From: Agarivorans litoreus
GTDB taxonomy: Bacteria > Pseudomonadota > Gammaproteobacteria > Enterobacterales > Celerinatantimonadaceae
Length of the DNA: 64,000 nt
Direction of reading: 5' to 3'
Assembly: GCF_019649015.1 (NCBI RefSeq)
Contig: NZ_BLPI01000001.1
Span: 2,249,001 to 2,313,000 of the forward strand
Each line of letters begins with the position of its first letter. Positions within the stretch are counted from its first letter, which is position 1. A program made the translations under genes and the position numbers. Below the pieces are notes generated by a model. The model was given only the letters and a program-made list of their open reading frames with translations, was not told the origin of the DNA and ran no database searches. Below, one piece after another: positions 4,911 to 52,985 of this stretch.

Positions 4911-4982
4911 TCACATCATCGCCTTGGCCAACGCGCAAACTAAACCTAAAAGTAGGATATAAATCCAATTATATTGAGTCAA

Positions 4983-5000
4983 GTGGGAATACAGTCCCAC
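4983..5000 (+). promoter_or_regulatory. HipB-type operator, distal copy
   Basis: GTGGGAATACAGTCCCAC is an inverted repeat with perfect 6-bp arms (GTGGGA / TCCCAC) around ATACAG. It matches the two promoter-proximal copies (GGGAATATAGTCC), so it is a third binding site for the same dimeric repressor, about 50 bases further upstream. Confidence 0.7.
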
Positions 5001-5033
5001 ATTTTTAGTGTTAGAGTTGTTTGAGTATCATGC

Positions 5034-5079
5034 TTGGACTATATTCCCATTAATGACTAAATAATGGGAATATAGTCCC
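5034..5079 (+). promoter_or_regulatory. hipBA promoter flanked by two inverted operators
   Basis: A perfect 17-bp inverted repeat (GGACTATATTCCCATTA at 5036-5052, its complement at 5062-5078) surrounds a 9-nt spacer. Each arm is itself an operator of the form GGGA-N6-TCC. A plausible sigma70 pair is TTGGAC (5034) and TAAATA (5058), 18 bases apart, so RNA polymerase and repressor would compete. The antitoxin ATG follows 14 bases after the second arm. This arrangement fits autoregulation by the HipB-like antitoxin, as in E. coli hipBA, although the site sequence differs. Confidence 0.72.
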
Positions 5080-5092
5080 TTAGGTTGGTGGT

Positions 5093-5398
5093 ATGGCTAA
5101 GCGTGATTTACACAATGTACTGTTTCCAAAGCAGCGCAAAATTCTGACGCATTTTGGTGAGGACTTGCTGTTGGCCATGAAGCGACGAGGTTTTACAAAA
5201 AAGCTGCTGTGTGAACGTACTGGCTTTGATCATAAAACCGTGAACAAAGTCTTCGCAGGTGATCCGGGCGTTGCCATAGGCACTTACTTAAAAGTGATGG
5301 CCGTTCTAGGCATGGAAAGCAACTTTGCAGAAATGGCCGCTCATGATGAAGTGGGTATCAAGCTGCAAAACATAAAATTGCTGGAAGGTTCAAGATGA
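5093..5398 (+). CDS. HipB-like XRE antitoxin
   Basis: A 101-residue helix-turn-helix protein. The HTH core spans about residues 20-60 (GEDLLLAMKRRGFTKKLLCERTGFDHKTVNKVFAGDP). The gene directly precedes and overlaps a HipA-like kinase by four bases (ATGA), the usual antitoxin-first order. Three copies of a palindrome lie immediately upstream. Known role of the family: neutralise the HipA kinase by complex formation and repress the operon, more strongly with toxin bound. It is only distantly related to E. coli HipB. The N terminus (MAKRDLHNVLFPKQRKIL) resembles solitary phage-type regulators, so the assignment rests largely on context. Confidence 0.85.
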   Translation: MAKRDLHNVLFPKQRKILTHFGEDLLLAMKRRGFTKKLLCERTGFDHKTVNKVFAGDPGVAIGTYLKVMAVLGMESNFAEMAAHDEVGIKLQNIKLLEGSR

Positions 5399-6660
5399 GC
5401 CGTGAAATCGTCGAAGTCTATGCAGACTGGCAGCCAATTGAAGCGCCTTTGCTAATTGGGCAGCTTGCTTACAGTGATTCAAGCCGAGGTGGCGTGTTTA
5501 GTTTTGCCTACGATAAAGCATTTTTAACCTCAGCCTATCGTTTGCAAATTGATCCAATCCTGACGCTTCACTCCGGTGAACTCTACAACGATGAAGCTGA
5601 CAAAAACTTTCGCGCATTTCTCGATTCATCGCCTGATAGATGGGGACGTATTTTAATGCAGCGGCGTGCAGCGATTGAAGCGCGCAAAGGCATTCGAGCA
5701 ACAAGTCGATTAAACGAGTTGGATTACCTGCTGGGCGTTCATGACTCTTACCGGATGGGGGGGATTCGATTTAAGCGAGCAGGCTCGAATGCTTTCTTAG
5801 ATGACAACTCTGAGTTTGCTGCGCCGCCAATGGCGTCTTTGCGAGAGCTAGAGCACGCAGCCATGCAGATTGAAAAAGACGATAACATCGACAGTGACGA
5901 GTATTACCGCTGGTTGAAAATGCTGATTTCTCCAGGCTCATCATTAGGCGGTGCAAGGCCCAAGGCTTGTGTGACAGATGAACAAGGCCACTTGTGGATT
6001 GCCAAGTTTCCCAACTTAAATGATACCCATGACGTGGGGGCGTGGGAGATGGTCTGTTATGAGTTGGCTCTGGCGGCAGGTGTTGAGATGTTTCCAAGTG
6101 AGATCAGGCAGTTTTCCTCTGGGCATCATACCTTTTTAACAAAACGGTTTGATCGCGATGGCGAAAATCGGCTGCATTTTTCATCGGCCATGACACAGCT
6201 TCGCTATTTTGGAAACGAAAAGTATGATGGTGAACAATCTCAAGGTGCCAGCTACCTAGAAATTGCTGAATTTATTTCCAATTGTGGTGCACAAACAAAA
6301 GCGGATTTAGCACAGTTATGGCGCCGTATCGTGTTTAATATTGCGGTGTCCAACACAGATGATCACCTGCGTAACCATGGGTTTTTATTAACAAAGAAGG
6401 GTTGGAAGTTATCACCCGCTTATGATTTAAACCCGATAGTGGATAAGCACGGCCTGCATCTGAATATTACCGATGCAGACAACGCTTTAGACTACCAATT
6501 AGCCTTTGGCGTGAAAGACTTCTTCCGATTATCTCAAACCCAAGCCACGCAAATTTACGATGAAGTATTAAAGGCGGTTAAGCAGTGGCAAATCGTTGCT
6601 AAGCGGCTAGGCATCAGCCGAGCCGAGCAAGCCATGAAACAATCGGCGTTTAACGTTTAA
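5395..6660 (+). CDS. HipA-like serine/threonine kinase toxin
   Basis: A 421-residue toxin of the HipA family. The N-terminal HipA_N region (about 10-110) is followed by the Ser/Gly loop SPGSSLGGARPKA (about 179-191), which contains the autophosphorylatable serine region. Then come the ATP-site Lys (WIAKFP), the catalytic loop NTDDHLRNHGF (Asp about 322) and the metal-binding SPAYDLNP (Asp about 344). All kinase elements are present, so it should be active. HipA of E. coli phosphorylates glutamyl-tRNA synthetase; the target here is unknown. It overlaps the antitoxin by four bases. Length and motifs are normal for the family. It lies 2.8 kb from the remains of a second hipBA pair. Confidence 0.92.
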   Translation: MSREIVEVYADWQPIEAPLLIGQLAYSDSSRGGVFSFAYDKAFLTSAYRLQIDPILTLHSGELYNDEADKNFRAFLDSSPDRWGRILMQRRAAIEARKGIRATSRLNELDYLLGVHDSYRMGGIRFKRAGSNAFLDDNSEFAAPPMASLRELEHAAMQIEKDDNIDSDEYYRWLKMLISPGSSLGGARPKACVTDEQGHLWIAKFPNLNDTHDVGAWEMVCYELALAAGVEMFPSEIRQFSSGHHTFLTKRFDRDGENRLHFSSAMTQLRYFGNEKYDGEQSQGASYLEIAEFISNCGAQTKADLAQLWRRIVFNIAVSNTDDHLRNHGFLLTKKGWKLSPAYDLNPIVDKHGLHLNITDADNALDYQLAFGVKDFFRLSQTQATQIYDEVLKAVKQWQIVAKRLGISRAEQAMKQSAFNV

Positions 6661-6662
6661 TG

Positions 6663-6752
6663 AGTAAGTGAACCAACAGTCAACATAAATGGCTAGCGAG
6701 GTTTGAACTCCATTACAGACAAGACCGCTAGATTACAGGTGGCGCACTTACT
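6663..6752. other. Nested inverted repeats with cloverleaf-like potential
   Basis: Between hipA and the next gene, AGTAAGTG (6663-6670) pairs with CACTTACT (6745-6752). Inside it CTAGCG-A-GGT (6693-6702) pairs with ACCGCTAG (6724-6731) with one bulge. The minus strand also reads GGAGTTCAAACC, reminiscent of a tRNA T arm, but its stem pairs poorly and no anticodon arm can be drawn. It could be a tRNA remnant used as an attachment site, an mRNA structure that ends the hipA transcript, or a regulator site for the following operon. Confidence 0.35.
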
Positions 6753-6928
6753 GTCCACAGGGATTGTTGTTGTCCGAAACGGAAAATATCTTTGCGCCAT
6801 TATCAGCAGTTGATAAGATGTTCGGCTTATGTATAAGCGTACAGTCTTTTTATTGGCCAAGCGCTGTTTTATCTGCTTGCTGGGAACCTAGTGAGCAAAC
6901 TGTTCGAGTAAGCTATGTGAGTGAAGCA

Positions 6929-7261
6929 ATGAAAAACGCAAAACAATCGCGCTGCGTGATTGGGATTAAAGGGCAAACGCCCGACCCCGATTACCCCGTT
7001 GATATCTGGTTCGATTCGCTTAAATCGGTAGCTAATGTGCTGTCGAAAGAAAACCAGCAGTTGTTAAAAGTAATTGCCGAGCAACAGCCGCAATCGGTGA
7101 CTGAGCTGGCAATGCTTACGGGCCGTGCGGTCAGTAATGTGTCGAGAACACTTAAGACATTAGATGGTTTGGGCATAGTGTGTTTAACGCGTGTATCTGG
7201 GCAAGTGAAACCAACTATAAAATTTCGCTCCTTTGTTGTGGTAGGAGATTATTGTGAGTAA
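6929..7261 (+). CDS. MarR-like HTH regulator (HVO_A0114-type)
   Basis: A 110-residue predicted DNA-binding protein from ATG 6929. The opening IGIKGQTPDPDYPVDIWFDSL is characteristic of the HVO_A0114 group. A winged helix-turn-helix follows (LLKVIAEQQPQSVTELAMLTGRAVSNVSRTLKTLDGLGIV). An in-frame ATG at 6764 would add 55 residues that look unrelated to the family, so the later start is preferred. The stop overlaps the GTG of the methyltransferase by eight bases, so it heads the restriction-modification operon and probably controls it. Relatives of this group also serve as antitoxins next to DUF6516-type toxins; no such toxin is present here. Base composition matches the host, unlike the next gene. 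Confidence 0.72.
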   Translation: MKNAKQSRCVIGIKGQTPDPDYPVDIWFDSLKSVANVLSKENQQLLKVIAEQQPQSVTELAMLTGRAVSNVSRTLKTLDGLGIVCLTRVSGQVKPTIKFRSFVVVGDYCE

Positions 7262-8339
7262 TGTAATTTTTTCTTTTTTTTCAGGTTCAGGATTTCTTGA
7301 TTTGGGTTTTGAAAAAGCTGGTTTTGAAATTGTATTTGTAAATGAAGTAGAAAATCAGTTTATTAAGGCTTATGAGTTTAGCCGAAAAACAATGGGGCAT
7401 AGTGAGCCAAAATATGGTTATCAAGCTAATTCAATCGAAGATTATTTGAATAATGAAGATGAAGGGTATCTGAACGATAGTGTCAATAATGAAAGCCGTA
7501 TAGGTAATCTCGTAGGTTTTATTGGGGGGCCGCCTTGCCCTGATTTTTCTGTTGGAGGGAAAAATGCTGGTAAAACTGGAGAAAATGGTAAATTATCAAG
7601 ATCCTACGTAGAGTGTATTAAAAAATATAAGCCAGATTGGTTCGTTTTTGAAAACGTGAAAGGCCTATGGAGAACTAAAAAGCATAGGGAGTTCTATGAT
7701 GAACTTAAAAAAGAATTAAGTGATTCTGGTTATGATTTAAATGATCGTTTGATTAATTCGTTGGAGTTTGGTGTTCCTCAAGATAGAGACCGGATAATAC
7801 TTTTTGGTGTCAAAAAAAATATTCATGAAAAAATAGATAAAGACTTTTTTTGGGAGAGATATATGAAGTACCCAAATAAGTCTGCATTTTCCTACAAATG
7901 GCCGGAAAAAAGTCCATTTGGAGAAGCTTTTAAAGCACCAAGTGACCTTCCTTTGGAGCTTACAGTTGAATATTGGTTTAATAAAAATAAAGTTCATCTA
8001 CATCCAAATAAGGATCATCATTTTACACCAAGAGCTGGATTAGCAAAGTTTCTAGTTATTGATGAAGGTGATACATCAAAAAAGTCTTATAAGAGGCTTC
8101 ATCGTTTTCGATACTCACCAACAGCCGCATACGGTAATAATGAAGTTCATCTGCATCCAACTAAGGCTAGAAGAATATCAGCTGCGGAAGCTATGGCTAT
8201 TCAGTCTTTACCTTGTGATTTCGAACTTCCAAGTTCAATGACTTTAAGTGCGATGTTTAAAACAATTGGAAATGGTGTTCCTTATCTCTTTTCATATGGC
8301 ATTGCTAAAACAATTCAGGATTATCTGAAGGATGAGTAG
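7254..8339 (+). CDS. DNA (cytosine-5) methyltransferase
   Basis: A 361-residue C5 methyltransferase starting at GTG 7254. Motif I is FSGSGFLDLGFEKAGF (AdoMet binding), motif IV GGPPCPDFS with nucleophile Cys about 95, motif VI FENVKG, motif VIII QDRDRII, motif X GNGVPYLF. Target recognition should lie in about residues 195-300 (FFWERYMKYPNK... to PTAAYGNN...). The gene is markedly AT-rich (17 of 60 bases GC in 7681-7740), unlike the nuclease gene downstream. It sits between the HTH regulator (8-bp overlap) and the AAA+ gene (adjacent). Its job is presumably to protect host DNA from the McrBC-like nuclease; the recognition sequence cannot be read from the sequence. Confidence 0.95.
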   Translation: MSNVIFSFFSGSGFLDLGFEKAGFEIVFVNEVENQFIKAYEFSRKTMGHSEPKYGYQANSIEDYLNNEDEGYLNDSVNNESRIGNLVGFIGGPPCPDFSVGGKNAGKTGENGKLSRSYVECIKKYKPDWFVFENVKGLWRTKKHREFYDELKKELSDSGYDLNDRLINSLEFGVPQDRDRIILFGVKKNIHEKIDKDFFWERYMKYPNKSAFSYKWPEKSPFGEAFKAPSDLPLELTVEYWFNKNKVHLHPNKDHHFTPRAGLAKFLVIDEGDTSKKSYKRLHRFRYSPTAAYGNNEVHLHPTKARRISAAEAMAIQSLPCDFELPSSMTLSAMFKTIGNGVPYLFSYGIAKTIQDYLKDE

Positions 8340-10061
8340 ATGAAAATTGAAGATGCGTTAAGCAAATCAAGAACATGGATAGATCAACTTGTTGGTAACG
8401 AGTTGCAATATATAACAGGAAGAAATACTTCAATTATTACTCGTGTTGATTGGGAAGGTGAGGGGAAATTATTTGTTGGGCGCGGCGACAAAGAAATATC
8501 TATTAATTTTAAACGAGTTGAAGATGCAATTAAAATTTTAATAAATGGCCAAATAGTTCATTTTGACACCATTCTTCGATCGGGTAGCAATGACAGAACT
8601 GTCATTGAGACAATTATTGCGAATTTCCCACCTGTGGGATTTATGCTGCCAAATAAAGGAAGAAATAAACGTAAAAACAAAGTATTGCAGTGGTTAAATA
8701 AAGAAATTCATCCACTTGGTAATATTATGGATATAAGTGCAGATGAGTTCGCCGAACTGTCCTTAAGTATTGGTGAAATAAAAAAAGCACAGGCCTTATC
8801 CAAACCCTTCCTCCTTCTAGCCGGCATCTCTGGTACAGGTAAAACCCGCTTTGTGCGTGAGCAAGCAAAAACTTCAATGCAGTTTGCTGAAACTTATTGT
8901 TTAACCTCAGTGCGCCCCGACTGGCATGAGCCGAGTGATTTGCTTGGTTATATTTCTCGCCTCGCAAAAGACGGCGAAGCTGAATACATCACTACCGATG
9001 TATTGCAATTTATCGCCAAAGCATGGCGTGCTATTGCTGATAGCGGCTTAACCATTGAGGTGCAAGAGAGCGAAGACCAAGGTAAGTGTTTAGTGGTAAT
9101 AGGTGAACGTGATGCACTTGAGCGGATACTTCCTTTCTGGTTGTGTTTGGATGAAATGAACCTTGCCCCTGTTGAGCAGTATTTTGCTGATTATTTGTCG
9201 GTGCTGGAAACCCGCGAATGGCGTTGGACAGACGATAGCTTTACCTACAGCAGTGATGCGTTATTAAAACCTGCCACCATTAATGAAGTCGCTGATATAG
9301 AAAAGCTACGCGGAGCGCTAGGCTTTGATGATGCGAAATACAACGAGCTGTGGGCACATATTTGCCAATATGGTTTAGGTATTCCGTTTAACCTGCTAGT
9401 AGCGGGCACAGTGAATATGGATGAAACCACTCATGGCTTTTCACGCAAAGTGATTGACCGAGCGCTGAGCTTTGATTTTGGTGCGTTTTTCCCAAATAAC
9501 TTTGATGAGTTTGCTGATTTTGGAACTCCAACAAGTTGCAATAAGCGCCTTAGCTATCCTATTTGGTCAAACGCCAGCAAAATAGATTTAGCCAATACCT
9601 TTGATGCGGATGGCTCTAAAACAATTGCGTTTTTATCGGCAGTCAACACAGTGCTAAAAAATACACCGTTTGAGTTGGCGTTTCGTGCGCTCAATGAGCT
9701 GCTCCTCGCAGTTGCCAGCAGCCAACCACAAGATGAACTGACCCTAAAAGCCGTATGGGACGACTTTATGATGTGCAAGGTTCTGCCGCGTATAGAAGGC
9801 GATACCGATAAACTGACTACATCAAATCGCAAGGATTTGCTGGAAGAACTTAGCGCTGAGCTTTCAGACCAGTTAGCCCCTATTTGGCAAGCAGAACAAG
9901 CCGATAAGAATCAACGCCCTGACTTATATCGCGAGAAAATCGTGGCCGATGGTGCTACTGATGAGGAGAAAGTACTTCGTATACCTTGCCGTTCAAAAGC
10001 TAAGTTGAAGTGGATGATCGATCGATTAGACAGCGCCACCTTTACCAGTTTCTGGCCTTAA
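8340..10061 (+). CDS. McrB-like AAA+ ATPase subunit of restriction complex
   Basis: A 573-residue AAA+ motor. Walker A GISGTGKTRF lies at about 162-171, Walker B with the McrB hallmark WLCLDEMNLAPVEQYF at about 268-283, and a sensor segment GTVNMDETTHGFSRKVIDRA at about 357-376. McrB proteins use GTP or ATP to translocate DNA and drive a McrC nuclease. Residues 1 to about 147 form a separate N-terminal domain, expected to read the DNA target; this part is AT-rich like the methyltransferase, whereas DNA from about 8780 onward is near 50% GC. It is adjacent to the methyltransferase (stop then ATG) and 85 bases before the nuclease gene. In LlaJI-type systems the equivalent protein pairs with a PD-(D/E)XK partner and cognate C5 methylases. 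Confidence 0.9.
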   Translation: MKIEDALSKSRTWIDQLVGNELQYITGRNTSIITRVDWEGEGKLFVGRGDKEISINFKRVEDAIKILINGQIVHFDTILRSGSNDRTVIETIIANFPPVGFMLPNKGRNKRKNKVLQWLNKEIHPLGNIMDISADEFAELSLSIGEIKKAQALSKPFLLLAGISGTGKTRFVREQAKTSMQFAETYCLTSVRPDWHEPSDLLGYISRLAKDGEAEYITTDVLQFIAKAWRAIADSGLTIEVQESEDQGKCLVVIGERDALERILPFWLCLDEMNLAPVEQYFADYLSVLETREWRWTDDSFTYSSDALLKPATINEVADIEKLRGALGFDDAKYNELWAHICQYGLGIPFNLLVAGTVNMDETTHGFSRKVIDRALSFDFGAFFPNNFDEFADFGTPTSCNKRLSYPIWSNASKIDLANTFDADGSKTIAFLSAVNTVLKNTPFELAFRALNELLLAVASSQPQDELTLKAVWDDFMMCKVLPRIEGDTDKLTTSNRKDLLEELSAELSDQLAPIWQAEQADKNQRPDLYREKIVADGATDEEKVLRIPCRSKAKLKWMIDRLDSATFTSFWP

Positions 10062-10146
10062 TGAGTCGGTGCTGTTTGATGCCTTCTGCAATGAATGCAA
10101 CCCATAAGCAGAACCCGTACAGTGATGGTGTAAGGAGTGCTAGGGA

Positions 10147-12765
10147 ATGCCTGAGTTAATACGATTACAAACCCCCGACTTTGAGTTTTCTGTCTGGGCG
10201 AATGATATTAGCCAGCGGTTGAGCGTGTACCAGAATACAATGGCGCACAGGGCGAGCGCTAATGATGTACAACCTAGCTACGAATTGCGCTTTGCGCCTG
10301 CGGCGCAGCTGAGCAATGCTATTGAGCCGCAAGGGCTTGTTGCAGATGGTTTGGTACCAAGTGGGTTAGATGAAAGTGACTTAGCCGACAACGACCTTGT
10401 TGCCAATAGCTTAGCGAAACACGCTGAGCTGACATTAAATTCCCCGCTGTTTTTTGAGAATACTCAGTACCAGTTTGAGTGGGTCTTTTTTAGTGAAGTC
10501 ACTAATGCGCGGTTAACCCATCGCAGCCAAAGTGTGAATGAGGCATTTCGTTTTGCCCCCGAAGTACAAACCGCAAGGGGCGTGGTGCCTGCACGTTTAA
10601 CCGGCACCATTAATACCGGCAATGATGTGGGCTGGTTGCGTTTACCGCTCACTTTTGAACTTAATGGCAAAACACAGACTCAGCACATTGCCTTTGAAGT
10701 GCTACCAACTAAAATGGCCCTGCACCAAGACTTGCCCGCCATGTATCAAGCGATTGATACTGTATTCCCTCATTGGCGTTTTAGTTTGGTCGAAAAAACC
10801 GAGCAAAATGTTGCGCGAAGTACAAAGCGTATTCACTTTCCTTTAGTGTGGCTTGAAAACTTTAGAGAGCTAAGAAAGCGTTTTGAAAGTGGCTTAAAGG
10901 TGGTATGTGCCGCACCGCATAGCCGTTTGCAGCCGACGGTTGCCAATATTAAAGCGGCCAAATTAAAAGGCCGTTTGCCTCATAAGTTAGCCGAGCAAGT
11001 AAAGCAAGACTTTGCGAATGGCCAGTACGATAAACGCTACGCGGTCGAAAAAAAGCAACTGAGTGTCGACACCCCAGAAAACCGCTTTATCAAAATGGCG
11101 GTGAGTAAAAGCAAGCGGCAATTAGCGGAGTTTGAACAAAAGCTAAGGCAAAGTAACCAAGCACTAGAGCGCCCACGTTTATCAGAATCCTTCATTGATG
11201 AAGTACACAGTTGGCAGCCGCCGCTACAAAAAGTATTAGGCCAAAGTTTTTTAAAAGAGGTGGGTGCATACACAGGGTTAAGTCGTGAGTCTTTAGTGCT
11301 ACAGCAAAAAACCGGTTACAGCGCGGTGTATCGCGTTTGGCAGGAGCTGAAATTTTATTTAGATGTGTTTGGCAATCAGTCGAGCATTTCAATGAAGTCA
11401 GTGGCTGAGATTTATGAAATCTGGTGTTTTTTGTGTTTGAAACAGATTTTAGAGCAGGATCTCGGCTTTAAGTTGGTGGAAAATGGTGCAGCAGAGTTAA
11501 AGCAGAATGACTTTTTCGAGTACAGCTTTAAAGAAGATGGCATGCGCGGTGCGTTTCGATTTAAGCGTGCTGATGGAGTGACGGCAAGATTAGCTCATGA
11601 ACCGATTTTTAATAAAGCGGGTAAAATACGCTCGTATCTAGTGAGCCAAAAGCCAGATATTGTGTTGGAAGTGACACTGCCTAAAAGCGCCGATTTAACA
11701 AAAGCAGACTCATCAGAAGAAAAGCAGTTTATTTGGCTGTTTGATGCCAAGTATCGCATTAAAACCGAGAAAAACCGCTTTGATGACTGCAATGAAGATA
11801 TCGAAAGTACCGATTACGTACCAGACGATGCCATCAATCAGATGCATCGTTATCGGGACGCTTTGATCCGCCTGTCTGAGTATCCATCCAGCTCAACGGC
11901 TGGCCAACCCACCAAAAAAAGCCGCCCAGTTTTTGGTGCGTTTGCTTTATATCCTGGTTTTTTTGACCAAGCCACAACACCAAACCCCTACGCAACCGCA
12001 ATAGAAGAAGTGGGTATTGGCGCATTTGCCCTCTTACCTAGTCAAAATAAGCCTAGCCAAAATGAGCCTAGTCAAAACGAACTTAGTCAAACTGATCCTA
12101 CCCAGACTAAGAGCAGTTATTCCGGCCATCAATGGTTGCTAGAGTTCTTGCAAGCGCAAATTGGCACAGCTCCGAACGCACAAACAGGGCAAAACAATGA
12201 AGCCATGTATCCCGTGGCTGGCATGGCGGAAAAGCTCTACGTGCAAGAAGCCGCACGCATACCGTATTACGGCATGCGCCAAATGCTGTACCCAGACCTT
12301 ACGTTTACTGCCGCGTTGGGGCCTCAAAAAGGCCGTAATAAACGCTATCTGGAAAACTTCGAAAATGGTGTTGCTCAGTGGTATCACATAAAAGTAGCGG
12401 CAATTAAACAGCTCGAAAATAATGTTGGGTCACATCATATTGCTGAGGAGATCCGCTATTTAGCGTTAGCAACGCCATCAACTCAGCATGTGGGCACTAA
12501 AGAGATAGCAAAGGTTTGGCCTGTGAAACGGGTTGCGATTTTGCCACGTAACTCCATCACTGCCGTACAGGCTGGAAAGGAAGTTGATTCACCAGAGCCC
12601 TATTACCTTTTTCAATTAGGTAAGCCATTGGCTCTCCAGGTGGCGGTGACTCATGTTCCGCTACGAAATTTTAGTCATTCGATGAAACTCACAACCTTGA
12701 CTCGCTTAGAGAGCGTGACAAAGTTTGTTGAAGTAGATGAAGTGTACCGAGAGGCGATGGTGTGA
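10147..12765 (+). CDS. DUF2357/PD-(D/E)XK nuclease, McrC-like partner
   Basis: An 872-residue protein with an N-terminal DUF2357-like region (about 1-330, ending in VDTPENRFIKMAV, a conserved signature of this group) and a PD-(D/E)XK nuclease core: KPDIVLEV (Asp about 504) and WLFDAKYRI (Asp about 533, Lys about 535). Both catalytic elements are present. A Q/N/S/P-rich tandem repeat at about residues 631-655 and a C-terminal domain with ALGPQKGRNKRYLENF follow. It is larger than E. coli McrC (about 350 residues), resembling R2-type subunits of LlaJI-like systems. Together with the upstream ATPase it should cut unmodified DNA. It is the last gene of the operon; the HepT gene downstream is on the other strand. 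Confidence 0.85.
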   Translation: MPELIRLQTPDFEFSVWANDISQRLSVYQNTMAHRASANDVQPSYELRFAPAAQLSNAIEPQGLVADGLVPSGLDESDLADNDLVANSLAKHAELTLNSPLFFENTQYQFEWVFFSEVTNARLTHRSQSVNEAFRFAPEVQTARGVVPARLTGTINTGNDVGWLRLPLTFELNGKTQTQHIAFEVLPTKMALHQDLPAMYQAIDTVFPHWRFSLVEKTEQNVARSTKRIHFPLVWLENFRELRKRFESGLKVVCAAPHSRLQPTVANIKAAKLKGRLPHKLAEQVKQDFANGQYDKRYAVEKKQLSVDTPENRFIKMAVSKSKRQLAEFEQKLRQSNQALERPRLSESFIDEVHSWQPPLQKVLGQSFLKEVGAYTGLSRESLVLQQKTGYSAVYRVWQELKFYLDVFGNQSSISMKSVAEIYEIWCFLCLKQILEQDLGFKLVENGAAELKQNDFFEYSFKEDGMRGAFRFKRADGVTARLAHEPIFNKAGKIRSYLVSQKPDIVLEVTLPKSADLTKADSSEEKQFIWLFDAKYRIKTEKNRFDDCNEDIESTDYVPDDAINQMHRYRDALIRLSEYPSSSTAGQPTKKSRPVFGAFALYPGFFDQATTPNPYATAIEEVGIGAFALLPSQNKPSQNEPSQNELSQTDPTQTKSSYSGHQWLLEFLQAQIGTAPNAQTGQNNEAMYPVAGMAEKLYVQEAARIPYYGMRQMLYPDLTFTAALGPQKGRNKRYLENFENGVAQWYHIKVAAIKQLENNVGSHHIAEEIRYLALATPSTQHVGTKEIAKVWPVKRVAILPRNSITAVQAGKEVDSPEPYYLFQLGKPLALQVAVTHVPLRNFSHSMKLTTLTRLESVTKFVEVDEVYREAMV
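12037..12111 (+). repeat. 15-bp tandem repeat, five units, in the nuclease gene
   Basis: Five consecutive 15-bp units close to CCTAGYCAAAAYGAG encode PSQNK, PSQNE, PSQNE, LSQTD and PTQTK. The multiple-of-three unit allows copy-number change without a frameshift. It forms a flexible linker after the nuclease core. Confidence 0.85.
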
Positions 12766-12850
12766 ATGGCACACGACTCCTTGTTATGAAAGGGAAGATC
12801 TAGACTGTGTAGCTCGTTAAACAGGAAGTTATCTTCCGATTTGATAGGAA

Positions 12851-13255
12851 TTAAAGCCGCTTAATACGCTCACAAAAGTCGCTGAAGTCACTCAAGCGAT
12901 GTTCAACTACGTGGATGACTATGTCGAGGTTTAGCGTTTGGTAGTAATGAATGGCTATGTTGCGTAGCCCCAGCATTTTTTGCAAACTTTCTGATAGCGG
13001 CAACGGCAATAAACCGGCTCTGGCTAATAGCGCAAAGCTGTCGCGGCTATGTTGAGGAATGCCTGTTTGTTGCTGTTTATTGATGATGTTGGCTAAATCT
13101 ATACATGCTTCGCAGGCGCGTTGCAGGTTTAAGATTACCGAGTCTTGCCGTGTATCGTCTTGCTTAAAGTTGTTACCCGCTTCTTGGTATACCTTTGTAA
13201 TACGTTGCAAGCAACGCTCTACGGTAACAAGCTTATTAATTATGGGGTCATTCAT
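12851..13255 (-). CDS. hepT: HepT-like HEPN ribonuclease toxin
   Basis: A 134-residue all-helical HEPN (DUF86) protein. The RX4HXY active site is complete: RNIAIHYY, with Arg about 98, His 103 and Tyr 105. Family role: an RNase toxin silenced by polyadenylylation of the Tyr by its MntA nucleotidyltransferase partner. Its start overlaps the end of the mntA remnant by eight bases, the standard mntA-hepT order. The toxin frame is intact although the antitoxin gene is broken, which is unexpected. The last residues (SDFSDFCERIKRL) are as in relatives. It is convergent with the nuclease gene. Confidence 0.88.
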   Translation of the reverse strand: MNDPIINKLVTVERCLQRITKVYQEAGNNFKQDDTRQDSVILNLQRACEACIDLANIINKQQQTGIPQHSRDSFALLARAGLLPLPLSESLQKMLGLRNIAIHYYQTLNLDIVIHVVEHRLSDFSDFCERIKRL

Positions 13256-13638
13256 TATGGTAAGACTTTAGAATGTCTGCACGCTCTTGATTAAGCTTTT
13301 GATACATGGCCATTACTTGCATCTCGAAGCGTGTTTTCTCGGGTTTTTCTCCCCACAGTAGCTGCCCTTTATAAATGATTTGGTGCTGCAATACGGTAGA
13401 GGCCGAGAGTAAATCTATAAGGTCTACATCTTTGCCAAGTTTTATGGCCAGTTCTTCTTGCAGGTCGAAGCGTTGAATGGGGTCGAGTTTTTGGGTAACA
13501 ATAGCGCGAGGTCGATGTCACTTTGCGCCGTAGCGCTATTGTTAGCTTGGGAGCCAAATAGATATAACAAACGCGTTTGCGGTAAGGCCGTTATACTAAC
13601 TTGCTTAGCGCTTGATGTTCTGTTGAATTTGGCTCCAT
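13248..13638 (-). pseudogene. mntA: MntA-like nucleotidyltransferase antitoxin, two frameshifts
   Basis: Reading the minus strand from ATG 13638 gives MEPNSTEHQALSKLV then a stop. A second frame, entered near 13600, gives ALPQTRLLYLFGSQANNSATAQSDIDLALLLPK with the nucleotidyltransferase GS...DID signature. A third, entered at a five-base A run (minus strand; 13488-13492), gives KLDPIQRFDLQEELAIKLG to the TGA at 13250-13248. Adding one base at each junction restores about 130 residues, the usual MntA length. The conserved catalytic motif and overlap with hepT leave no doubt about identity. Either both lesions are real (dead antitoxin) or they are base-calling errors at short runs. Confidence 0.8.
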
Positions 13639-49493: not shown

Positions 49494-50420
49494 TTGGAAA
49501 AACGAATTAAAAAAATATCAATTATTACATTAACTTATAATAATTGGCGTTTACTTGAACAGGCATTTTTATCATTGAGTACTCAAGAGTTACCGAAAGG
49601 TGTCTTTATAGAGTACTTTGTTGTAGATGATGGCAGTATCGACTTTAATGTCAATGCTATTGAGACTATGGCAGAACAGTATGGCATCGATAAAAAGTAT
49701 ACATTTAGTATCAAACAAAATTCTGAGAATATAGGTACTGTGGCAAGCTTTAATCGGGCAATAAAAAGCAGTAATGGTGATCTCATCATTCCACTGGCTG
49801 GTGACGATAGTCTTGCTAACGATACGGTGATAAAAGATATTACTAACTACTTTGATTTTAATGATGCACTCTTACTAACGGGCCTCCGGATTCCTGTTGT
49901 TGATGGTGTGCCGTATAAAGAAAAAGTGATGCCAGAATGTAAATATCATTATATGTTTGAGCAAAGCAACCAAGCTTCACTTTATAAGCAGTTGTGTTTA
50001 AAAAATAATATTATTTCAGGTGCGTCGACTTATTATCACCGTGATGTATTTAATATTGTTGGAATGTTTGATGAATCGTATCGATTAATGGAAGATTTCC
50101 CGTTTTATGTAAGCTCGATTTCTAAAGGAATTAAAATACATTTACTCAAAAAGCCTACACTTCTGTATAGTACTCATGGCCTTAGCAATCAGAGCACCGT
50201 CAACCCTTTACTTCAGAAAGATCATGTTCGACTGATGAAAAACATAATAAGCCAGCGTGACTTTAGTTATTATGAACTAAGATGTTTATATTTCAATGAG
50301 GTGCTCGATAGCTTTGAACGTAAGTCTCTGTTTAATATGATTAAATATATAGATTGCTTACTACTTAGGAGGTATGGATCCCTAAAAAAATCGATAATAA
50401 AAAGAGTCGTCTCTAAATAG
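49494..50420 (+). CDS. GT2 glycosyltransferase
   Basis: A 308-residue GT-A enzyme, TTG start at 49494 with TAGG about ten bases upstream. N-terminal ISIITLTYNNWRLLEQAFLSL, first Asp in VVDDGSIDFN, donor motif PLAGDDSLANDT, and a later acid-rich base region LMEDFPFYV. Very AT-rich (12 of 60 bases GC in 49501-49560). It likely transfers the deoxyaminosugar or a partner sugar to an O-chain or outer core. Its stop touches the 3' end of the next (minus) gene. Confidence 0.85.
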   Translation: MEKRIKKISIITLTYNNWRLLEQAFLSLSTQELPKGVFIEYFVVDDGSIDFNVNAIETMAEQYGIDKKYTFSIKQNSENIGTVASFNRAIKSSNGDLIIPLAGDDSLANDTVIKDITNYFDFNDALLLTGLRIPVVDGVPYKEKVMPECKYHYMFEQSNQASLYKQLCLKNNIISGASTYYHRDVFNIVGMFDESYRLMEDFPFYVSSISKGIKIHLLKKPTLLYSTHGLSNQSTVNPLLQKDHVRLMKNIISQRDFSYYELRCLYFNEVLDSFERKSLFNMIKYIDCLLLRRYGSLKKSIIKRVVSK

Positions 50421-51230
50421 TTATTTATATTTTTTATGAGAAGAGGAAAATGACTCTAAACGTTTACGTAAACTGTAAATAATACTTCTATTAAATAAAG
50501 TGTTTAGCCAACTTATGTTGGTGATGATAAGCTTGGTACAAGTACTTCTTATATACTTGTTGCTTAGAGCCTTAGCGTACTTATTTAATAATTCTTTTTT
50601 GCTCACTTCAAAACTTTTATTAATGTTCCCACCACTATTATGTAGTAAATGGAAGTCAATTACATAAGATCTTAAGCCTAATATTTCAGCAATAATACAC
50701 ATGTCTGTTCCGTATAGGTGAAAACCTGATAGGTCTTTAGAAATAGATAGTGCGGATTCTTTTTTTACAATTATAAAATTTTCATCCAAGCTTTTAACTT
50801 GTGCAGGGAAGTTTCCAACATTAATATTTTCACCATGCGGATCGCTAATACGCATGGCATAGTGTTTAAAGTCAATATATCCAGCATTACCGCACAAGCC
50901 CCAATTGGGATCTATTTGGTCTAGCTCTCTCAATTCGCTTTCAAGTTTTTCTTTATCATCAAAGTTTAAAAGAATATCTTGGTGACAAAGAATAATGTAA
51001 TTAGCATCGGAGTGAGTAAGAAACTTCCTAATTGCTTGATAGGCATCTAATTTATTACTTTTACTATTATCAGCATAAATGAATTGCGTATTTTCTTCAG
51101 AAAAGCCAACCGATGCAAAAGACTTTAACATGCCCTGGTATTCGGAGAGGTCGGTAACTAGGGTGCATACTGCAAATTGGTAGTTATGCTTAATTTGGTC
51201 AATTTCTTTAGCGTTCACTGGATTACTCAT
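50421..51230 (-). CDS. Glycosyltransferase-like protein, AT-rich
   Basis: A 269-residue protein with a GT-A-like layout: FAVCTLVTDLSEYQGMLKSF, the segment YADNSKSNKLDAYQAIRKF, then CHQDILLNFDD replacing DxD, and FHLYGTDMCIIAEILG. ATG 51230 (MSNPVNAKEID) is preferred over a TTG six codons earlier. It belongs to a group of surface-polysaccharide transferases that is poorly defined; acceptor and donor are unknown. It forms a minus-strand run with the two GT2 genes behind it. Confidence 0.68.
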   Translation of the reverse strand: MSNPVNAKEIDQIKHNYQFAVCTLVTDLSEYQGMLKSFASVGFSEENTQFIYADNSKSNKLDAYQAIRKFLTHSDANYIILCHQDILLNFDDKEKLESELRELDQIDPNWGLCGNAGYIDFKHYAMRISDPHGENINVGNFPAQVKSLDENFIIVKKESALSISKDLSGFHLYGTDMCIIAEILGLRSYVIDFHLLHNSGGNINKSFEVSKKELLNKYAKALSNKYIRSTCTKLIITNISWLNTLFNRSIIYSLRKRLESFSSSHKKYK

Positions 51231-51258
51231 GACATATTCTGTAGGCAATTATTTAGGT

Positions 51259-52083
51259 TTAATCTAGGTACTTATCTATGCCATTTTCACAATAGTATAG
51301 TTTTTTGGCGGTGTTTTCTTTGATAATTCGAAGATTGATATTAACGTCGGCACGCCGCTCTTGGTGGTGTAAATGATAAACAGGAATCACAAATTTTACG
51401 CTTTTCTCATGAATGCCTTTGCCGTTAAAGCGCCAACCAAGATCGTCATCTTCCCCGCCAACACCAGGTAAGTCTTCGTTGTAACCATTTATTTTCAGCA
51501 TGTCTTTTCTAGCTACGGACCAGTTGCAGCCAACAATGGTTAAATATTTTGCTTGCTGTCTTTTGTGTAATAACTTAGAGCGAAAGCCTATTTCATAGTT
51601 TTTGGTGTGGTCAAATAGAAGCGGAATACCTAACAAGGTATAAATCAAACGATTCTCTAATAGCGAGAGTAGTTGAGGCTTTTTTCTTAGCCAAGCAGAG
51701 ACTACAGGCCCTAAATGCACTCGCCTTCCTGTGCATACTCTGTTTTTCTCGCGCTGCAAAAGGTGCTCTTCTACGTAGTGGCTATGAGGTAGGCAGTCAC
51801 CGTCTAAAAACATAAGGTAATCGCTTTTGGCTGCTGCTATCGCCCTGTTGACTGCTTTGGTTTTACGAAAGCCAATATCTTCTTGGCTTAAATGCTGAAT
51901 TGGAAAATTAAAGCCTTGTTGGCTTAGGTAATTCTGCACAGCTTCACTTTCACAATCTTCAGCAATTATCACTTCAAATTGCTTTTCTGTTTGTTGGCTT
52001 AAAGCGTATAAAATGGCATTTAAAGCCTCAACGTCTTTATAGATTGAAATAATCACACTTGCTTTGGGTGAAGAATGACTCAT
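51259..52083 (-). CDS. GT2 glycosyltransferase
   Basis: A 274-residue GT-A enzyme with ASVIISIYKDVEALNAILYALSQQ, donor site MFLDGDCLPHSHYV, and the late catalytic region GYNEDLPGVGGEDDDLGWRF (ED motif of galactosyl/galactosaminyl-type GT27 C domains). Its start overlaps the stop of the WbbL-like gene by four bases (ATGA). Likely an LPS outer-core or O-chain transferase. Confidence 0.88.
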   Translation of the reverse strand: MSHSSPKASVIISIYKDVEALNAILYALSQQTEKQFEVIIAEDCESEAVQNYLSQQGFNFPIQHLSQEDIGFRKTKAVNRAIAAAKSDYLMFLDGDCLPHSHYVEEHLLQREKNRVCTGRRVHLGPVVSAWLRKKPQLLSLLENRLIYTLLGIPLLFDHTKNYEIGFRSKLLHKRQQAKYLTIVGCNWSVARKDMLKINGYNEDLPGVGGEDDDLGWRFNGKGIHEKSVKFVIPVYHLHHQERRADVNINLRIIKENTAKKLYYCENGIDKYLD

Positions 52084-52985
52084 TGGTTACCTTGCTTATA
52101 TCTTAGTGACTGGTTTTTGGGACAGCCTTTTAATAAGAATTTTAGAAGTGGCCTTCTGTTAGGTTTTGTTATGGCTCGTTTGCACTCTTTCAATAAGTAT
52201 ACACTTTTGATTATGCTTCTTGAGTAAACTGGGTAGTGTTTGCGCAGTAATCGCCAAAATGAAATGTAAAACTCTTTTTCAATCGCGAGATCTCGTTCGG
52301 TGCTTCCACCACCTAAATGAATCACTTTGGCGTTATTTAATAGGTAGATGGGTTTGTTTTTTTTGTGCAAACGAATCGCAAAATCTTCTTCTTCACAGTA
52401 TAGGAAGTACTCAGTATCGTAACCACCTAGCTGTTCAAAATCGCTACGCCTAAAAAACATGGTAGCCCCGCTAACAACCGGTACCGCAATTGGATGTTGG
52501 TAATGCGTTTTACGTTTGGGGTAGTTAGCGGGCTTAAATATTCTTAGTAACGAGGCACCAAGTAGCTTATTGGCAACAGTGGGGATGTATTCAAATGAAG
52601 CTGTACGCTGGTTTTCTTCGCTATAAATTGTGGGGCTGCATAATGCGGTGTCTGGGTGTTGTTCCATGAACAGAAACATTGCATCTAAGCTGCCTGGAAG
52701 AACGCGTGTATCATTGTTTAGAAAAAAAATATATTGCCCCTGACAGTAAGCAAAGCCAGACATATTCCCGCCTGAAAAACCTAGGTTAAACTCATTTTTC
52801 ACTAACTTGGCCCAAGGATAAGCGCCAATATTTGATTCTAGGTTTTGTAAGTCGTCATTGCGGGAGGCATTGTCTACAACAATGGCTTCAAATGATACTG
52901 TTGGCTTACTGTCTGTAATCGATTTTAAGCAATCAAGAGTGTGTGCGCTTGAGTTGTAATTGATCATTACAATCGAAATGTTCAT
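52080..52985 (-). CDS. GT2 glycosyltransferase, WbbL/rhamnosyltransferase-like
   Basis: A 301-residue GT-A enzyme with ISIVMINYNSSAHTLDCLKSI, VVDNASRNDD, NLGFSGGNMSGF, donor motif FLNNDTRVLPG and base region YDTEYFLYCEEEDFAIRL. This set of motifs is typical of WbbL-type rhamnosyltransferases; the sugar cannot be settled from sequence. It is first of a three-gene minus-strand run downstream of the GT4-deacetylase fusion gene. Confidence 0.9.
   Translation of the reverse strand: MNISIVMINYNSSAHTLDCLKSITDSKPTVSFEAIVVDNASRNDDLQNLESNIGAYPWAKLVKNEFNLGFSGGNMSGFAYCQGQYIFFLNNDTRVLPGSLDAMFLFMEQHPDTALCSPTIYSEENQRTASFEYIPTVANKLLGASLLRIFKPANYPKRKTHYQHPIAVPVVSGATMFFRRSDFEQLGGYDTEYFLYCEEEDFAIRLHKKNKPIYLLNNAKVIHLGGGSTERDLAIEKEFYISFWRLLRKHYPVYSRSIIKSVYLLKECKRAITKPNRRPLLKFLLKGCPKNQSLRYKQGNQ

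Follow-up and report, generated by a model that had tools for sequence, protein, structure and literature searches.

Cassette exchange of a DNA methylase and its putative target reader in McrBC-type operons related to that of Agarivorans litoreus

The DNA analysed here, hereafter the window, is a 64 000-nucleotide stretch of the Agarivorans litoreus genome (contig NZ_BLPI01000001.1, positions 2,249,001 to 2,313,000), and all positions below are counted from its first letter. Four genes on the plus strand form the set of interest: a helix-turn-helix (HTH) regulator, a C5-cytosine methyltransferase (methylase), an AAA+ ATPase (8340-10061) and a nuclease. The HTH gene (6764-7261; Pfam HVO_A0114, 5e-19) has a tentative start at 6764, and a conserved ATG at 6929 corresponds to the start of its homologue in the related operon L001. 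The methylase gene (7254-8339; Pfam DNA_methylase 9e-52, PADLOC MTase_II 3e-165) has kept its motifs intact in alignment (GGPPCPDFS, ENV, QDRDR and GNGVP). Residues 1-152 of the ATPase (8340-8795) form an N-terminal domain that is the putative target reader, and the rest (8796-10061) is a McrB-like AAA+ motor that is kept in related operons. It contains the Walker A motif GISGTGKT together with TVNMDETTHGFSRKVIDR, and its NxD signature reads NMD. The McrC-like nuclease (10147-12765) combines DUF2357 (1e-59) with a PD-(D/E)xK domain (PDDEXK_7, 8e-38). In the Pfam scan the window nuclease gave no match to RE_LlaJI (PF09563), which is present in L055, and the ATPase (P0003) gave none to MrcB_N (PF12102).

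The window operon was compared with 36 related operons, collected from a scan of genome contigs and a genome search across the order (37 with the window's own). An initial annotation of this DNA had predicted that methylase and reader are swapped on a kept motor and nuclease, and comparison with the operons L001, L002 and L039 bears this out. From about 8796 through the nuclease (to 12765) the window DNA is 83.8-83.9% identical to L001 and L002 and 85.9% identical to L039 (71.6% across the last 950 bases); at the protein level the AAA core is 82-90%, the AAA front 89-90% and the nuclease 81-84% identical to these three, the methylases 22-26% and the readers 3-5%. The operons therefore do not diverge uniformly, which had been named beforehand as the outcome that would speak against a swap: DNA identity is 84-86% in motor and nuclease, and nothing can be aligned in the cassette. 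L001 and L002 are closer still to each other, with motor and nuclease DNA 97.3% identical and flanks 93-97% identical, and they carry readers of 359 and 194 amino acids that cannot be aligned (6% identity) and methylases of different families (26% identity). Cassette exchange on the chassis common to L001, L002, L039 and the window is proven. Furthermore, Mantel tests over the 17 methylase-bearing operons correlated reader with methylase similarity (r 0.50, P 0.0002) and core with nuclease similarity (r 0.78, P 0.0002), and found no correlation of the core with either the reader (r -0.12, P 0.95) or the methylase (r 0.02, P 0.33). The window's reader and methylase types also recur with a motor core only ~60% identical (L004 and L005). 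Reader and methylase travel together, independently of the motor.

The edges of the exchanged segment can be placed at the level of single bases. On the HTH side, homology in blastn alignments ends at 7161 (L001 and L039), 7164 (L003) or 7179 (L040, L041 and L044), so that the left edge, taken as the end of DNA homology to these six operons, lies at 7161-7179; up to this edge the HTH gene is 91% identical to that of L001 (over 6929-7161) and 88% identical to that of L003 (over 6781-7164). Homology restarts at 8795-8797 in L001, L002, L003, L039, L041 and L044, most commonly at 8796, which is codon 153 of the ATPase gene, and at 8777 in L040. Between the edges, blastn with the window found no DNA match in operons with a different reader. 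Both borders proposed in the initial annotation thus exist but are displaced: the right one sits at 8796, not 8780, and the left one precedes the methylase start, falling within the 3' end of the HTH gene. A special crossover site at 8796 was considered and rejected, as same-codon conservation is 0.69 in the first 15 core codons and 0.53-0.74 elsewhere in the AAA front; since conservation is not raised there, the sharp edge is the end of homology, not a cut site or hot spot. Crossovers can fall anywhere within 8796-9512, and this front part of the motor, about 720 bp long, is a plausible homology arm for recombination.

The segment is also distinct in base composition. G+C content (GC) is 0.344 across 7254-8795, that is, the methylase gene and the first 152 ATPase codons, with GC at third codon positions (GC3) of 0.23-0.26. 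By part, GC and GC3 are 0.445 and 0.436 in the HTH gene, 0.343 and 0.227 in the methylase gene, 0.346 and 0.257 in 8340-8795, 0.458 and 0.430 in the AAA core, and 0.461 and 0.453 in the nuclease gene. The counts originally quoted (17/60 at 7681-7740 and 30/60 at 9301-9360) are exact, and the contrast that they were meant to illustrate is real (GC 0.34-0.35 against 0.445 and 0.458); as it is seen at third codon positions, it reflects more than amino-acid make-up. Among stretches of the same length across the 64 kb, 111 of 6246 are equally AT-rich, and those at or near this level sit at the cassette segment and near 50 kb, in a glycosyltransferase region. The second AT-rich stretch (49494-52985) holds glycosyltransferase genes of a surface polysaccharide cluster.

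An AlphaFold2 model of the reader (predicted local distance difference test score 87, predicted template modelling score 0.83) consists of an N-terminal helix, a small four-stranded barrel (SH3/Sm-like), and then three helices with a two-stranded wing. The order of secondary structures fits a winged helix, for which the best VIA Z values, 7.3 (Fur) and 6.0 (ZitR), lie in the chance range. The most conserved stretch of the reader family, GSGSSRNQPETILANLP, spans the putative recognition helix. A sequence search of the PDB returned one chance match for the ATPase (TOR2) and none for the reader profile, and thus no solved relative.

The neighbours of related methylases point to a candidate target. 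Plasmids of Moraxella, Nostoc and Geobacillus carry methylases with 38-58% identity to that of the window, next to enzymes of the Cfr10I/Bse634I family; Cfr10I, Bse634I and BsrFI recognise RCCGGY (PMC2413257). The Geobacillus plasmid is pBsrF30, from strain CPW16, where RCCGGY methylation has been measured and matched to BsrFI (PMC8112702). In its recognition region the window methylase is 50-52% identical to the methylases next to Cfr10I/BsrFI enzymes, with the block SPTAAYGNNEVHLHP nearly invariant. In addition, a Cfr10I-family endonuclease gene lies directly behind the reader of a GHKL/Mrr-helicase system on a viral contig (L064:6001-8356). A search with the reader profile found no homology between the reader and Cfr10I-family enzymes. 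Our best guess from these sequence comparisons is that RCCGGY is the target of both methylase and reader.

A profile of the window's reader retrieved homologues from viral contigs, phages and two order-level genomes, and wherever the contig permits the check, the reader adjoins a methylase of the window's family (41-58% identity). The window, L004 and L005 have this reader type on a McrBC-type machine, and L055 has it on a LlaJI-type machine with RE_LlaJI. It occurs with Menshen (NsnABC) in L053, L059, L060, L067 and the Vibrio phages L9-1 and 10N.286.55.E6_PE002, the last of which has its locus annotated as Menshen. The PADLOC NsnA model covers the L053 protein only from residue 222 onward, which makes the reader an N-terminal addition in this protein; in L067 it is a separate gene of 135 amino acids. 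No Menshen papers were found under the gene names NsnA and NsnB. Finally, a free-standing reader accompanies a GHKL ATPase and an Mrr-type helicase in L052/L065, L054, L064 and on the minus strand of L004. In L004 (Photobacterium sanctipauli, 5962-13619) a McrBC-type and an Mrr-helicase-type machine, each with its reader, are arranged around one methylase, and about 6 kb beyond them a third reader is found with another methylase (L063).

Reader type and methylase content are associated across the comparison set. The MrcB_N reader, which matched in 12 of 12 methylase-less readers subjected to a Pfam scan, is found in 15 operons, which count as Type IV and none of which has a C5 methylase; among the 22 operons with other readers, 17 carry one or two (Fisher P 3e-6). 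MrcB_N (DUF3578) is the methylcytosine-binding domain of Escherichia coli McrB (PMC11090510). L014 combines two methylases with BpuJI_N, the domain by which BpuJI, a Type IIS enzyme, recognises DNA; L012 and L043 have two methylases each, like LlaJI, which uses two for its asymmetric site (PMC1459862). Operons of opposite kinds are close neighbours in two cases: L007 and L008, 79% identical in DNA from core start to nuclease end, and L003 compared with L001, L002, L039 and the window. On the motor tree we counted 11 changes between Type IV-like and restriction-modification (RM)-like forms, equal to the mean for shuffled labels (11.0), a count that is approximate given several unsupported forks and a mosaic motor gene. 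Through a cassette swap, a Type IV system that depends on methylation can become an RM system. We lean slightly towards the broader reading that methylase and small reader make up a portable RCCGGY cassette used on at least four unrelated machines, and that exchange in the McrBC slot repeatedly flips the system between cutting methylated and cutting unmethylated DNA.

The reading that we prefer, with a probability of about 0.8, is that the window holds a McrBC-type RM system in which methylase and reader move as one cassette of ~1.6 kb between the HTH gene and the AAA motor. The composition break, first put forward as the mark of this swap, is real but does not by itself prove one: GC is lower in the reader than in the core in 36 of the 37 operons, and GC3 in all 37, in loci of 36-58% GC and also where there is no methylase. 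It is a standing property of the gene family and by itself no sign of a recent swap, so that composition alone neither shows nor dates one. Chances are about even that AT-richness is intrinsic to the reader and methylase genes and silent on transfer, which would account for the composition, but not for the loss of homology at the edges. That there was no exchange, reader and methylase having evolved in place much faster than motor and nuclease, is scarcely credible: readers are the most divergent part everywhere, but the unrelated readers and methylases on the nearly identical machines of L001 and L002 refute evolution in place unless those contigs are misassembled, and the recurrence of the window's pair in L004 and L005 and the Pfam-distinct readers MrcB_N and BpuJI_N in other operons also argue against it. 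A stronger, though still doubtful, alternative is that mosaic whole operons replace each other at this site and that the cassette itself was not swapped in the window's lineage. Upstream of the HTH gene, HipB-like and HipA-like genes (5093-6660, plus strand; Pfam HipA_C 8e-54) form an operon flank that is also present in L003 and L041, which occupy the same site in the chromosome (88-91% DNA identity), and on the downstream side yicC is common to L003, L040 and L044. With the same-site operons L003, L040 and L041 the window has only flanks and AAA front in common; their readers, their methylase content and their nucleases (36-38% identity) are different, the nuclease having been exchanged here as well. 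Only the motor front stays close in DNA, over 8796-9512 (to 9811 in L003), in line with the 72-86% identity of this block to same-site Type IV relatives: identity is 85.6% in L040, from the window's own genus (8777-9512), 81.3% in L041 (8796-9512) and 71.7% in L044 (8795-9512). It then falls in these three at a second mosaic junction, at about 9512 within the motor gene. An AAA front common to L040 and L041 at 81-86% nevertheless indicates that the exchange is not one of whole operons, and L001, L002, L039 and the window display cassette exchange on one chassis, though not at this chromosomal site.

The role of the N-terminal domain is a separate matter. It is unlikely, though less so than evolution in place, to be a protein-protein or regulatory domain rather than a target reader. 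Fold matches are weak, and small barrels of the SH3/Sm type commonly serve for protein binding as well; against this, the domain is found on four unrelated machines beside a single methylase family that has a single conserved recognition block, it takes the place of known specificity domains (MrcB_N, BpuJI_N, and B3 in LlaJI), and in its winged-helix-like part the putative recognition helix coincides with the best-conserved stretch of the family. R1.LlaJI and the N-terminus of McrB are known specificity determinants (PMC1459862, PMC7680126). Several observations weigh against the reading of the window as an RM system with an exchangeable cassette. Foldseek with the reader model returned nothing below E 0.001, and the structural neighbours topped by winged-helix regulators at Z 5-7 are possibly due to chance. 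RCCGGY is not depleted in the 64-kb window (41 seen, 43.9 expected), a result that is not decisive. Some forks of the motor tree are unsupported, and the motor gene is a mosaic in its own right. Lastly, because the nuclease also differs in same-site relatives, the most recent exchange in the window's lineage may have gone beyond the cassette and replaced most of the operon.

The mechanism proposed for the preferred reading, a cassette-swapping RM system, is modelled on LlaJI and PcaI (PMC1459862, PMC8989522). Both restrict unmethylated DNA, and both have a McrB-like subunit that determines, or is believed to determine, specificity. The methylase would protect host sites (predicted RCCGGY), and the reader would dock the AAA+ ring on unmethylated copies of this site in incoming DNA. 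The ring would then move on the DNA and drive its DUF2357/PD-(D/E)xK partner, which would cut. Homologous recombination in the HTH and AAA flanks would replace methylase and reader together, and could also bring in a 5-methylcytosine (5mC) reader without a methylase, giving a Type IV system. Because reader and methylase are adjacent, one recombination changes both, and the host would not be exposed to an unprotected reader.

Similar architectures are known. RM systems of the LlaJI/BsuMI type likewise have a C5 methylase beside a McrB-like AAA+ subunit, whose N-terminal half sets specificity, and a PD-(D/E)xK partner (PMC1459862). However, LlaJI has two methylases and an asymmetric site, with a B3 reader in Helicobacter pylori, whereas the window has one methylase, another reader and a DUF2357/PDDEXK_7 nuclease in place of RE_LlaJI. 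PcaI of Pectobacterium resembles the window in its single C5 methylase, its McrB-like subunit with an unrelated DNA-binding domain and its DUF2357 nuclease, and restricts unmethylated DNA; its methylase is Dcm-like with the target CCNGG, and the accessible text describes no cassette exchange (PMC8989522). In the accessible text of the CoCoNuT paper (PMC11090510), the NxD signature marks one branch of McrB-like GTPases, and a methylase-associated NxD branch shares with the window this signature, a DUF2357 McrC and frequent methylase neighbours; that text defers methylase-associated McrBC branches to a later publication and does not describe exchange or edges. Type IV McrBC systems with MrcB_N have the same motor and nuclease family, but in the window MrcB_N is absent and a methylase is present. 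Exchange of Type I HsdS is comparable in that recognition modules recombine on a conserved machine (PMC12707154). In Type I systems, however, one S subunit serves both methylase and nuclease, whereas the window has its reader fused to the motor and needs a separate methylase gene to move with it. That unrelated N-terminal domains (MrcB_N, YTH, EVE and B3) occur on McrB homologues is established (PMC7680126, PMC12707154). As far as the openly searchable literature shows, the following are new: the placing of the edges at single bases, the finding that reader and methylase move jointly, the repeated Type IV/RM change and the reuse of one pair on four machines.

Several other features were recorded. 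The HVO_A0114 HTH is fused to the methylase N-terminus in L002 (4110-5414) and L008 (1941-3563), which suggests that the HTH protein regulates the operon. Three GGGAATAnAGTCCC-like inverted repeats, probably operators, lie 5' of the hipB-like gene (4980-5085), and the nuclease gene contains 4.3 copies of a 15-bp tandem repeat (12037-12100) encoding PSQNE-type repeats. Both the nuclease of L039 (8896-11546) and the HipA of L041 (5549-6798) are broken into two reading frames that overlap, perhaps by frameshifts or assembly errors. Relatives of the motor were not found in plasmids (protein search), in E. coli genomes (DNA search) or, using patterns from the window's own ATPase, in viral contigs, and a class-wide sample of 369 genomes yielded only the window's own match.

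The operons compared here offer a base-level view of how a McrBC-type defence can change its target while keeping its machine, which had earlier been inferred mainly from distant homologues whose N-terminal domains are unrelated, and a testable account of how Type IV and RM systems convert into each other. Should the methylase modify the first C of its predicted site, the methylated DNA would look like the RmC target of McrBC; gaining the methylase and losing the 5mC reader in one step would then avoid self-attack. With a small domain (about 140 amino acids) of predicted target RCCGGY present on several motors, transplanting readers between machines and predicting targets from the neighbouring methylase become direct experiments.

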